From positions 1 to 54,253 of the forward strand of contig CAMBNY010000011.1 of the NCBI GenBank assembly GCA_945869165.1: a DNA stretch of 54,253 nucleotides, in the 5' to 3' direction. Source of the DNA: Comamonas sp. lk. Lineage in GTDB: Bacteria > Pseudomonadota > Gammaproteobacteria > Burkholderiales > Burkholderiaceae_C. Both the position numbers and the translations under genes were made by a program. The notes beneath the pieces were generated by a model that did no database searches, had not been told where the DNA came from, and worked only from the letters and a program-made list of their open reading frames with translations. The stretch's first letter is position 1. Each line of letters begins with the position of its first letter. This document shows, piece by piece, positions 41,452 to 43,895 of the stretch.

Positions 41452-42033
41452 TTAACGCGCCAGCTTGTACACCGAAGTCCCCGCAAACCAATTGGGCATC
41501 CAGCGCACGACTTCACCATCTTGCAGGCCGAAGCTATCAATCACGCGCAAGCCGTTTTTGCGGGCCAGCGCACCCAGGTCGGCATGCGTGCCGACGCGGA
41601 TATTGGGCGTGTCGTACCACTGGTAGGGCAGGCGCTTGGTCACCGGCATGCGGCCTTGCAGCACACTGAAGCGGTTGGGCCAATGTCCAAAATTGGGGAA
41701 GGCCACAATGCCGATGCGCCCCACGCGCGCGGTTTCGCGGAGCATCACCTCGGCATTACGCAAGTGCTGCAAGGTGTCGATTTGCAGTACCACGTCAAAC
41801 GAGGCGTCGTCAAACATCGCTAGGCCTTCGTCCAAATTGAGCTGTATCACGTTGACGCCGCGCTGCACACAGGCCAGCACATTGGCGTCGTCGATTTCAA
41901 CGCCATAGCCACTGCAGCCGCGTGTGGCTTGCAAATGCGCCAACATGGCGCCGTCGCCACAGCCCAAGTCGAGCACGCGCGCGCCTTCGGGCACCAATTG
42001 CGCCAGCGCGTTTTGGATAGAGAGGTCGCTCAT
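41452..42033 (-). CDS. metW: Methionine biosynthesis protein MetW
   Basis: A 193-residue SAM-dependent-methyltransferase-fold protein of the MetW family, required with MetX for efficient homoserine acetylation in many proteobacteria. The SAM-site motif is [16 protein letters not shown] (about residues 19-34) and the [20 protein letters not shown] stretch follows. It overlaps the metX stop by four bases (ATGA), so translation is coupled. Family papers describe MetW as an activating partner of MetX rather than a proven methyltransferase. Confidence 0.94.
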
Positions 42034-43184
42034 ACGCGCACCTCGCGTGCCAGCGAATCAAAGTAAGAGCGCACTACGCTGTGGTAACGCACATCATCGA
42101 GCAAAAAAGCATCATGCCCATGCGGCGCATCGATCTCGGCGTAGCTGACATCACGCTGGTTGTCTAACAAGGCCTTCACGATTTCGCGGCTACGCGAAGG
42201 CGCAAAGCGCCAGTCGGTCACAAAGCTCACGAGCAAAAATTTGCTGCGCGCTGCCGCCAGCGCTTGGGTCAAGCTGCCACCAAATGTGCGCGCCGGGTCA
42301 AAGTAGTCCAGCGCGCGCGTGATGAGCAAATAGGTATTGGCGTCGAAGTAATCAGCAAACTTATCGCCCTGGTAGCGCAAATAGCTTTCGATCTGAAACT
42401 CCACGTCTTGCGTGCTGTAGCGGTAGTCGGTGCTGGCCGCCGCGTCTTGCACCGCATGGCGCAACTGGCGGCCAAACTTGGCGTTCATCACATCGTCGCT
42501 TAGGTAAGTGATGTGCCCGATCATGCGCGCGATGCGCAGCCCGCGCTTGGGTACCACGCCATGGCGGTAAAAGTGGCCACCATGAAAATCCGGGTCGGTG
42601 GTGATGGCGCGACGCGCCACTTCGTTGAACGCAATGTTTTCCGCCGTCAGATTAGGGGCGCTGGCGACGACCACCGCGCGACGCACACGGTCTGGGTATT
42701 GCAGCGTCCATGCCAGCGCTTGCATGCCGCCCAAACTGCCACCCATCACGGCGGCCAAAGTCCTAATGCCCAGTTGGTCGAGCAAGCGCGCTTGCGCGTC
42801 CACCCAGTCTTCCACGGTCACCACTGGAAAGTCCGCGCCATAGACCTGGCCGTCTGCGCTATCAGGGTTGATGTGCATCGGGCCGGTAGAGCCAAAGCAA
42901 GAGCCCAGGTTGTTCACGCCGATGACAAAAAAGCGATTCGTATCCACCGGTTTGCCCGGCCCGATCATGCTGTCCCACCAACCTTCGGATTTGGGCTGAT
43001 CCGCATACACGCCGGCCACATGGTGCGAAGCGTTGAGCGCGTGGCAAATCAGCACAGCATTGTTCTTGTCGGCGTTGAGCGTGCCGTAGGTTTCAAACGC
43101 CAGGTCGTAGGCGCGGATGGATGCGCCGCTTCGCAATGGCAGCGGCGCCTCAAAATGCAGGGACTGGGGTGTGGCAATCAACAT
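42030..43184 (-). CDS. metX: Homoserine O-acyltransferase MetX
   Basis: A 384-residue alpha/beta-hydrolase-fold homoserine O-acetyltransferase (or succinyltransferase), the first dedicated step of methionine synthesis. The nucleophile serine is in [14 protein letters not shown] (about residue 145), and the catalytic histidine lies near the end in HGHDAFLLD. The [13 protein letters not shown] stretch is typical. Beta-proteobacterial MetX proteins often use succinyl-CoA, so the acyl donor is uncertain. The start at 43184 matches family N-termini ([10 protein letters not shown]). It is preceded by a terminator and a SAM-II type aptamer. Confidence 0.95.
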
Positions 43185-43190
43185 AAAAAA

Positions 43191-43223
43191 CGAAACCCGG
43201 CATCGCTAATCGCGGGGCCGGGT
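43191..43223 (-). terminator. Terminator hairpin in the metX leader
   Basis: On the minus strand, ACCCGGC (43217-43223) pairs with GCCGGGT (43195-43201), with a possible inner CGC/GCG stem. The run TTTCGTTTTTT follows and ends at the metX start codon. Placed between the SAM-II type aptamer and the gene, it looks like the expression platform. It also leaves no room for a normal ribosome site. Confidence 0.7.
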
Positions 43224-43241
43224 CAAGCAAAGATCGCGGGG

Positions 43242-43295
43242 GTCCGTGTTTAGCTGAATTTATTAAGCGCCCGCAAGCTGGAGCAAATTGGCGCT
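43242..43295 (-). promoter_or_regulatory. SAM-II type riboswitch upstream of metX
   Basis: Read on the minus strand, a 6-bp P1 stem AGCGCC/GGCGCT (43290-43295 with 43266-43271) encloses a loop. The loop has the UUU, CC and UUGC elements in the order seen in the crystallised SAM-II metX aptamer from the Sargasso Sea. The 3' side reads AATAAATTCAGCTAAACACGGA, where the known aptamer has GAUAAAUGUAGCUAAA and a final GG. The loop CC can pair with this GG to make the H-type pseudoknot. Position before metX is where SAM-II normally acts, shutting the gene off when SAM is plentiful. One base pair of the second pseudoknot helix is not ideal. Confidence 0.82.
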
Positions 43296-43334
43296 GTGGG
43301 CAAAGTATAGCAACGCCCGTCTAGGCGCCCCGCC

Positions 43335-43895
43335 TTAGATTGGCAGCAGCGCCAGCACGCCCAACACCGCAAACACCAGCGCCGAGACGATATGCACCAC
43401 GCGCATAGGCACCAAGCGCGTCATGCGCTCGCCCAGGTAAACCACCGGCACATTGGCCAACATCATGCCCAGTGTGGTGCCCGCTACTACCCAGTAATAG
43501 GCATCAAAACGCGCCGCCAGCATGACGGTGGCAATCTGGGTTTTATCGCCCATCTCCGCCAGAAAAAAGGCGACGACCGTAGTGCCGAAAACGCCCCAGC
43601 GCGGCTCTTCGCCTTGCGCTTCGTCGTCCATGGTGTCAGGTATCAACATCCACACTGCCATGGCGATAAATGATGCGCCCAGCACCCAGCGCAAGATCTC
43701 TGGCCCGATCACCTGCGTCAACCAAGCCCCGAGCGCACCGGCCAAGCCGTGGTTAACGATGGTGGCCACGAAAATACCCAGCACGATAGGAATAGGCTTG
43801 CGAAAACGCAGCGCCAGAATCAGCGCGAGGAGTTGTGTTTTGTCGCCCATTTCGGCCAGGGCGACGATGCCGGTGGAGACCAGGAATGCTTCCAT
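43335..43895 (-). CDS. GDT1/TMEM165 family Mn2+ (Ca2+) exporter
   Basis: A 186-residue membrane protein of the UPF0016/GDT1 family, cation exporters that in bacteria mostly remove manganese (MneA-type). The two signature copies of ExGDKT are clear: ALAEMGDKTQLLAL near residue 15 and FFLAEMGDKTQIATVML near residue 117. The internal repeat and hydrophobic segments are as expected. It lies 40 bases after a small secreted-protein gene, with a hairpin in between. No yybP-ykoY manganese riboswitch fits in that short gap. Confidence 0.9.
   Translation of the reverse strand: MEAFLVSTGIVALAEMGDKTQLLALILALRFRKPIPIVLGIFVATIVNHGLAGALGAWLTQVIGPEILRWVLGASFIAMAVWMLIPDTMDDEAQGEEPRWGVFGTTVVAFFLAEMGDKTQIATVMLAARFDAYYWVVAGTTLGMMLANVPVVYLGERMTRLVPMRVVHIVSALVFAVLGVLALLPI

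Follow-up and report, generated by a model that had tools for sequence, protein, structure and literature searches.

The metX leader

The window, that is, the whole stretch of 54,253 nucleotides analysed here, carries metX followed by metW on its minus strand, preceded in the same direction by a GDT1-like gene. The 150-base gap between the GDT1-like gene and metX holds, in this order, a TATACT box, a SAM-II-like aptamer and a hairpin with a U-run. Besides exceeding the MetX_succinyl cut-off given below, the metX product scores over the cut-off of the general MetX model NF001209 (562.4, cut-off 331) and under that of the acetyl-type model TIGR01392 (452.5, cut-off 500). The features are, in the direction of reading:

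43335-43895, minus strand: GDT1-like gene, upstream of metX and in the same direction
43304-43309, minus strand: TATACT, a -10-like box by sequence; the preceding TGC makes it an extended -10
43241-43296, minus strand: predicted SAM-II aptamer, the region matched by the covariance model R1 (RF00521 match, 43228-43304)
43290-43295, minus strand: AGCGCC, 5' strand of P1, forming six pairs with GGCGCU
43285-43287, minus strand: UUU (of AUUU), by sequence
43280-43281, minus strand: CC, outer pseudoknot pairs of P2, by sequence, the exact register here being uncertain
43273-43276, minus strand: UUGC, 5' strand of the P2 core, its GC pairing with the GC of GCUAAA
43266-43271, minus strand: GGCGCU, 3' strand of P1, pairing with AGCGCC
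43259-43264, minus strand: AAUAAA, by sequence
43249-43255, minus strand: AGCUAAA, 3' strand of the P2 core and proposed antiterminator strand; CUAAA is invariant in alignment A3, whose rows were picked by a pattern requiring it
43244-43245, minus strand: GG of P2, by sequence
43185-43223, minus strand: likely terminator hairpin, ACCCGGC...GCCGGGU with the U-run UUUCGUUUUUU, by sequence and folding
43205-43209, minus strand: UUAGC, within the loop of the hairpin and complementary to GCUAA at 43254-43250
42030-43184, minus strand: metX (homoserine O-acyltransferase), its ATG beginning at 43184; NCBIfam MetX_succinyl 646.8 bits, cut-off 560
41452-42033, minus strand: metW, after metX; Pfam MetW E 3.9e-57, TIGR02081 230 bits, cut-off 189.5

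The original prediction had named a six-base-pair P1, UUU, CC, UUGC, AGCUAAA and GG on the minus strand, and every one of these elements was recovered where it had been placed, with the conserved core AUUU..UUGC..GCUAAA present in order. The outer helix of P2 is formed in this copy by CC/GG alone, in a register uncertain by one base. The nine-base direct repeat CCCCGCGAU occurs on the minus strand at 43241-43233, after P2, and again at 43217-43209, in the 5' half of the terminator; both copies contain CCCGCGA, which is able to pair with UUGCGGG of the aptamer, and the repeat is also found in some close relatives.

Of 132 metX leaders, 103 have a TATA[CAG]T box immediately ahead of the motif, at a distance of 4-9 nt in 99 of them, against a shuffled mean of 1.8. 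The transcript thus probably begins at P1, with a start predicted at about 43297 in the window; a simple sigma-70 scan of the leader listed no two-box promoter. By eye, no Shine-Dalgarno-like sequence was seen just before the metX ATG (43184-43196, minus strand), and the terminator U-run occupies the place expected for the metX ribosome site.

Assignment to the SAM-II class

The Rfam model RF00521 (SAM_alpha) aligns end to end with the leader and scores 25.1 bits, with E 5e-4 for the 201 bases searched. This falls short of the gathering score of 36, which is a detection cut-off and not a structural trait, and a scan at that threshold therefore reports nothing. The original prediction had staked itself on a score over the Rfam threshold, and this is the sole item in which it failed; homologous leaders at metX in the same family do exceed the cut-off. 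The window copy is the best of 19 RF00521 matches in its genome (the next scoring 17.3 bits) and, since all 14 control genomes also match at that loose limit, with none over the cut-off, it is this rank and the place at metX that carry weight. R1, a covariance model built here from 80 sequences, gave 63.0 bits for the window in its own genome and 17.9 for the next match, the former score not being independent because the window is one of the model's rows. By fold energy the leader does not stand out (z -1.70), 12 of 200 shuffles folding at least as well. SAM-V, which we take to be RF01826, was not among the three matches obtained in the leader at E<=10. A plus-strand DnaX frameshift match (23.4 bits, cut-off 35) proved to be the other strand of the terminator hairpin and was rejected. 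Elsewhere in the same genome, a SAH riboswitch (RF01057) was matched over its cut-off at 59.1 bits on the minus strand (G000:C2:111004-111092).

Among the 80 named loci nearest to this MetX, 74 carry the motif within 400 bases upstream of metX on the same strand, the six others being L019, L034, L050, L056, L068 (where the contig is cut) and L075; the motif likewise precedes metX in 26 of 29 further loci of the family. R1, of which 11 of the 80 named loci are rows, matches 74 of the 80 at E<=0.01, most copies with an insert in loop 3 being matched only in part, and 29 of the 30 best RF00521 loci of the family stand before metX. The frequency in the family had been left open in the original prediction. 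In a sample of 200 family genomes, the window's own included, RF00521 matches 161 at E<=0.1 (as it does two of the 14 control genomes, neither over the cut-off) and 50 over the cut-off, and R1 matches 163 at E<=1e-4; the Rfam cut-off thus misses the majority of the SAM-II copies in this family. Further afield, RF00521 was matched in 142 of 300 genomes of an order sample at E<=0.01 (51 over the cut-off) and in 83 of 398 genomes of a phylum sample at E<=0.001 (69 over the cut-off). Leader conservation had been named as a test that could overturn the prediction, and it held, the metX leaders of relatives keeping P1 and AGCUAAA or a near form; the CC/GG pairing is kept in the window's clade and varies further away.

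Pairing was followed in alignment A3, whose 80 sequences come from the family, its order and the phylum at large; they are the window plus 79 of 113 listed sequences, and L011 is identical to the window there. Alignment A1, whose rows were picked by the pattern GCGC..GGCGC and which is uninformative on P1 conservation, enters no count. P1 is paired in 98.1% of cells and the P2 outer helix in 66.9%, each with both-sided changes in five of its six pairs, and the nearly invariant P2 core is paired in 99.4%. Both-sided changes in P1 and P2 together amount to 151 cells vs 65.5 in shuffles, none of 500 being as high, much of the change in P1 reflecting a single split between alpha-type and beta-type sequences and hence few independent events. 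When the partners are slid against each other, pairing falls from 87.2% to 33.9-46.9%. In beta-type rows, P1 almost invariably reads GCGCC/GGCGC and the CCGG runs of the alpha-type P2 are mostly missing, which is why many copies score below the Rfam cut-off; beta- and alpha-type sequences nevertheless align across the whole core, with P1 and P2 covarying.

In 27 of 132 metX leaders (for example L024:1096-1173, L030:1362-1438 and L073:1372-1449), loop 3 holds an additional helix immediately following P1. Both-sided changes occur in five of its six pairs across these 27 rows of alignment A2 and, on a FastTree tree of MetX covering 132 leaders, 62 of them with the six-base-pair word treated below, the helix changed state at least six times with GCUAAA retained. 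To our knowledge, this helix has not been described.

A chance resemblance could draw on the score under the Rfam cut-off and on a fold energy z of only -1.70; the copy is, however, the best match in its genome, stands at metX and is kept in relatives, and conservation refutes chance, the probability of which is practically nil. The SAM-II class proposed in the original prediction is backed by the covariance model, the metX-metW context, the conserved leaders and the covarying P1 and P2. On these sequence comparisons, we regard the class assignment as firm: the metX leader is predicted to be a genuine SAM-II riboswitch, very probably sensing S-adenosylmethionine, and is one of many such predicted switches in this bacterial family.

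Likely terminator and proposed antiterminator

After the aptamer, ACCCGGC (43223-43217) pairs with GCCGGGU (43201-43195) and the U-run (43195-43185) abuts the metX ATG. An automatic finder returned a terminator-like hairpin after the aptamer in 180 of 193 distinct leaders, the beta-type pattern used for leaders having left out 66 of 268 loci (48 from the phylum sample, 7 weak own-genome matches and 11 others). The window's own copy (L001) is among the 13 leaders in which the finder saw no terminator, probably because its U-run is interrupted, and a simple terminator scan with a loop limit of eight bases did not list the hairpin either. That the hairpin and T-run abutting the start codon make termination the output, as originally suggested, gains backing from the relatives; an intrinsic terminator between aptamer and start codon, and termination with it, is likely.

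Control on translation only, with P2 hiding the ribosome site and an incidental hairpin, would suit leaders such as L164 and L224-L226, in which the GG of P2 lies within AGAGGU a few bases before the ATG, much like a ribosome site, and in the last three of which no terminator was found; the available text on a well-studied metX SAM-II riboswitch also describes it as blocking the ribosome site (PMC10907184). In the window, by contrast, about 60 bases separate the GG from the ATG and contain a strong hairpin with its U-run, nothing resembling a Shine-Dalgarno stretch was seen by eye at the ATG, and terminator-like hairpins are the rule in the other leaders. Translation-only control is therefore unlikely here, and termination is the preferred reading.

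For counts of complementarity, the 180 hairpins were reduced to 155 distinct ones. TTT[AG]G[CT], the complement of GCUAAA, lies within 63 of them, against 3.1 when the interior letters are shuffled (at most 9 in 500 shuffles) and 12.9 under dinucleotide shuffling (at most 21 in 200). The word TTTAGC ranks first of 120 letter permutations (median 2), several others reaching 43 to 52 of 155, perhaps by matching the GGGUUUU hairpin end under the G-U rule. Complementary pairs are found in L055 (UGCUAAAGAC with GUUUUUAGCG), L073 (UGCUAAAGAG with CUCUUUGGCA), L135 (UGCUAAAU with AUUUAGCA) and L267 (GCUAAACAG with CUGUUUAGC). The other 92 hairpins are without a six-base-pair complement, as is L120, the sole same-genus leader in the sample.

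The bases that flank GCUAAA covary with the hairpin on the 3' side. Positions +2 and +3 pair with it in 46 and 51 of the 63 cases (permuted means 25.1 and 31.0; none of 2000 permutations as high), and +1 in 48 (30 of 2000 as high; none of 2000 for Watson-Crick pairs); at -1 to -3 and at +4, no covariation with the hairpin was seen. On the MetX tree, branch-independent pairs of leaders differing at +2 were paired in both members in three of four cases (permuted mean 0.2; 0 of 2000 as high), those differing at +3 in five of six (1.9; 13 of 2000) and those differing at +1 in three of seven (1.3; 214 of 2000). With so few independent events on the tree, covariation between hairpin and aptamer is supported but modest.

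The best helix over the whole aptamer proved uninformative (149 of 155 observed vs 128.2 shuffled), and region-by-region tests were used in its place. The P2 3' strand forms 55 helices of score >=16 with its own hairpins, vs 1.9 under letter and 7.2 under dinucleotide shuffling, and 35.4 when leaders are swapped (at most 44 in 20 swaps). For the P1 and L3 strands there was no helix excess over dinucleotide shuffles, P1 3' helices across leaders lying below the shuffles and P1 5' within the dinucleotide shuffles. The P2 5' strand has a smaller excess at score >=18 (17 vs 6.0 or 8.5 shuffled), with 12 pairs in L158, for example, and some lineages may use this strand instead; set against 14.7 with leaders swapped, its 17 helices amount to no clear covariation. 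Leader by leader, 55 of 93 distinct pairs reached p<=0.05 and 38 did not. Leaders of the phylum sample, mostly alpha-type, gave a weak hint of the same, with a mean own score of 16.12 vs 15.00 swapped (at most 16.09 in 300) over 38 distinct leader/hairpin pairs drawn from 47 leaders, five of which were without a terminator.

Since the hairpin often complements GCUAAAnnn in relatives and the flanking bases covary, this strand is probably also an antiterminator. For beta-proteobacterial SAM-II as a whole, we lean towards the view that the SAM-binding strand GCUAAAnnn, the 3' strand of P2, is itself the antiterminator: its partner would be UUGC, around SAM, in one state and the terminator's loop and 5' half in the other, and that loop would track its changes. 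The hairpin would be of a different nature if it were the plain terminator of the upstream GDT1-like gene, which runs in the same direction and ends about 110 bases before it, with the metX promoter elsewhere and metX unregulated. This is highly improbable: a -10-like box stands ahead of the aptamer, the U-run abutting the ATG leaves no space for a promoter after the hairpin, the hairpin and the aptamer strand covary in relatives, and a simple scan found another terminator-like site at 43329-43312, though 0.7 such sites are expected in shuffles.

Growing transcripts were folded by a method that ignores pseudoknots and SAM. P1 is kept in the window's transcripts (0.95-0.98) save for a brief alternative at transcript end 43210 (P1 0.10), and GCUAA pairs with UUAGC with a probability of 0.96 and 0.97 at ends 43205 and 43201, falling to <=0.01 once the 3' arm reaches 43198. 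When the whole window hairpin has been made, the terminator is favoured (-37.4 vs -25.7 kcal/mol). Across the leaders with the six-base-pair word, the antiterminator helix exceeds 0.5 in 79 of 81 before the 3' arm and in 7 of 81 after it. Since the equilibrium fold is the terminator, the proposed switch would have to work by kinetic competition. An antiterminator drawn from the GC-rich P1/UUGCGGG segment was considered and rejected; in the window, UUGCGGG (43276-43270) pairs with CCCGCGA (43216-43210) at a likely 0.80 only for transcript end 43210, and is displaced by GCUAA with UUAGC at end 43205; across leaders, the P1 strands have no excess.

The window's own antiterminator amounts to GCUAA with UUAGC, five pairs in all, and the five-pair helix lies within interior shuffles in two near copies (L011, p 0.15; L014, p 0.20). 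With so short a helix, the window copy may switch weakly or differently; as judged from sequence, the antiterminator is supported in relatives and thin in the window.

Transcription would start at P1, which would form at once. Without SAM, GCUAA(A) would be free to pair with the nascent terminator hairpin, in its loop and 5' half (at UUAGC in this copy, with relatives reaching up to 10 pairs), and this pairing would delay the terminator until the polymerase is beyond the U-run. With SAM, GCUAAA would be locked with UUGC in the P2 pseudoknot, the terminator would fold, and transcription would end before the ATG. The proposed antiterminator is compatible with P1 and exclusive with P2, which fits the published picture of SAM-II, where the available text reports P1 as protected with or without ligand and P2 as SAM-dependent (PMC10907184). 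We consider it quite probable that the leader is a SAM-II riboswitch shutting down metX-metW at ample S-adenosylmethionine, through kinetic competition between antiterminator and terminator; for the window copy, we infer that SAM is the ligand, that control is in the off direction and that the competition is kinetic. For the window itself this would be ordinary gene regulation; for the SAM-II class, it offers a testable antiterminator.

Relation to described elements and other matches

The closest known system is SAM-II/SAM_alpha (RF00521; Corbino et al. 2005, PMC1273637; Barrick and Breaker 2007, PMC2258182), whose descriptions, as far as available, share with the leader the order of the core, P1 and the P2 pseudoknot, a start just before P1, a terminator between P2 and the gene, and methionine genes downstream. 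Unlike RF00521, the sequences here have the beta-type P1 GCGCC/GGCGC, mostly lack the alpha-type CCGG runs, and carry the loop-3 helix in 27 of 132 metX leaders. SAM-II is indeed best known from alphaproteobacteria, as the original prediction had it; terminator-bearing SAM-II in beta-proteobacteria was nonetheless in print by 2007, in a paper whose available text calls the mechanism not experimentally established (PMC2258182). In the accessible part of Meyer et al. (2009, PMC2704228), alpha-, beta- and gamma-proteobacteria are named as the groups in which SAM-II is commonest, and the pseudoknot and ligand-contacting bases of SAM-V are similar to those of SAM-II. The metZ SAM-II riboswitch of Sinorhizobium meliloti, an alphaproteobacterium unlike the present host, is alike in its predicted SAM-dependent terminator (PMC9373788, partial text).

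Leyn et al. (2014, PMC4239095, available in part) described, from 35 beta-proteobacterial genomes, a metXZ element that carries a terminator and precedes metXW or metZ, giving no ligand and speculating that its GC-rich regions 3 and 4 act in antitermination. It resembles the present leaders in standing before metX-metW (elsewhere metZ), in its occurrence in 10 of 11 Comamonadaceae and in its six conserved blocks, pseudoknot and terminator; here, by contrast, it is placed in SAM-II, with GCUAAAnnn as the proposed antiterminator strand. As place, gene, group and block order agree, the metXZ element and beta-type SAM-II, compared by description, are taken here as one. The same partially available study reports SAM_alpha from no orders but Rhizobiales and Rhodobacterales and presents metXZ as new (PMC4239095), which, along with the near-constant beta-type P1, would suit a distinct RNA class with another ligand and a mere likeness to SAM-II. 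Such a class is very unlikely, given that RF00521 scores over its cut-off in a quarter of the family genomes sampled, with its best loci nearly all before metX, and that the beta- and alpha-type align through the whole core with P1 and P2 covarying. Assignment to SAM-II would account for an RNA element described in 2014 without a ligand, and the GCUAAAnnn antiterminator, if true, would give this orphan both ligand and mechanism.

Judged by title and abstract, with most subscription journals lying outside the search, no paper was found that links metXZ to SAM-II or describes a GCUAAAnnn antiterminator; in a 2026 paper on whole-riboswitch covariation (PMC13273304), 'SAM-II' occurs in the available text in the reference list only. 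What is new here is the frequent complementarity, in relatives, between the terminator hairpin and the SAM-binding strand GCUAAAnnn, with covariation of the flanking bases.

Outside the family, SAM-II matches also stand before other methionine or SAM genes, named by eye: metK-like in L162, L209 and L267, metH-like in L176, L236 and L243, and metZ-like in L153, L165, L170 and L220, the gene of L209 having been named from its DNA and the others from translations. A second SAM-II-like motif, with the loop ..UUAA.CGACAACUUGC or the like, lies near the first aptamer in L214, L215, L233, L238 and L240, and also in L177, L216 and L227; in L247, only this second kind was seen. The small 'MFDCL...' proteins that follow the motif in L177 and L216 (114 and 109 residues) had no Pfam match at E<=0.01. 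One contig (G121:C1) carries a divergent pair of SAM-II matches separated by about 1.9 kb, at 1655340-1655416 (minus strand) and 1657257-1657333 (plus strand), the metX of that genome being distant, at 4737353.
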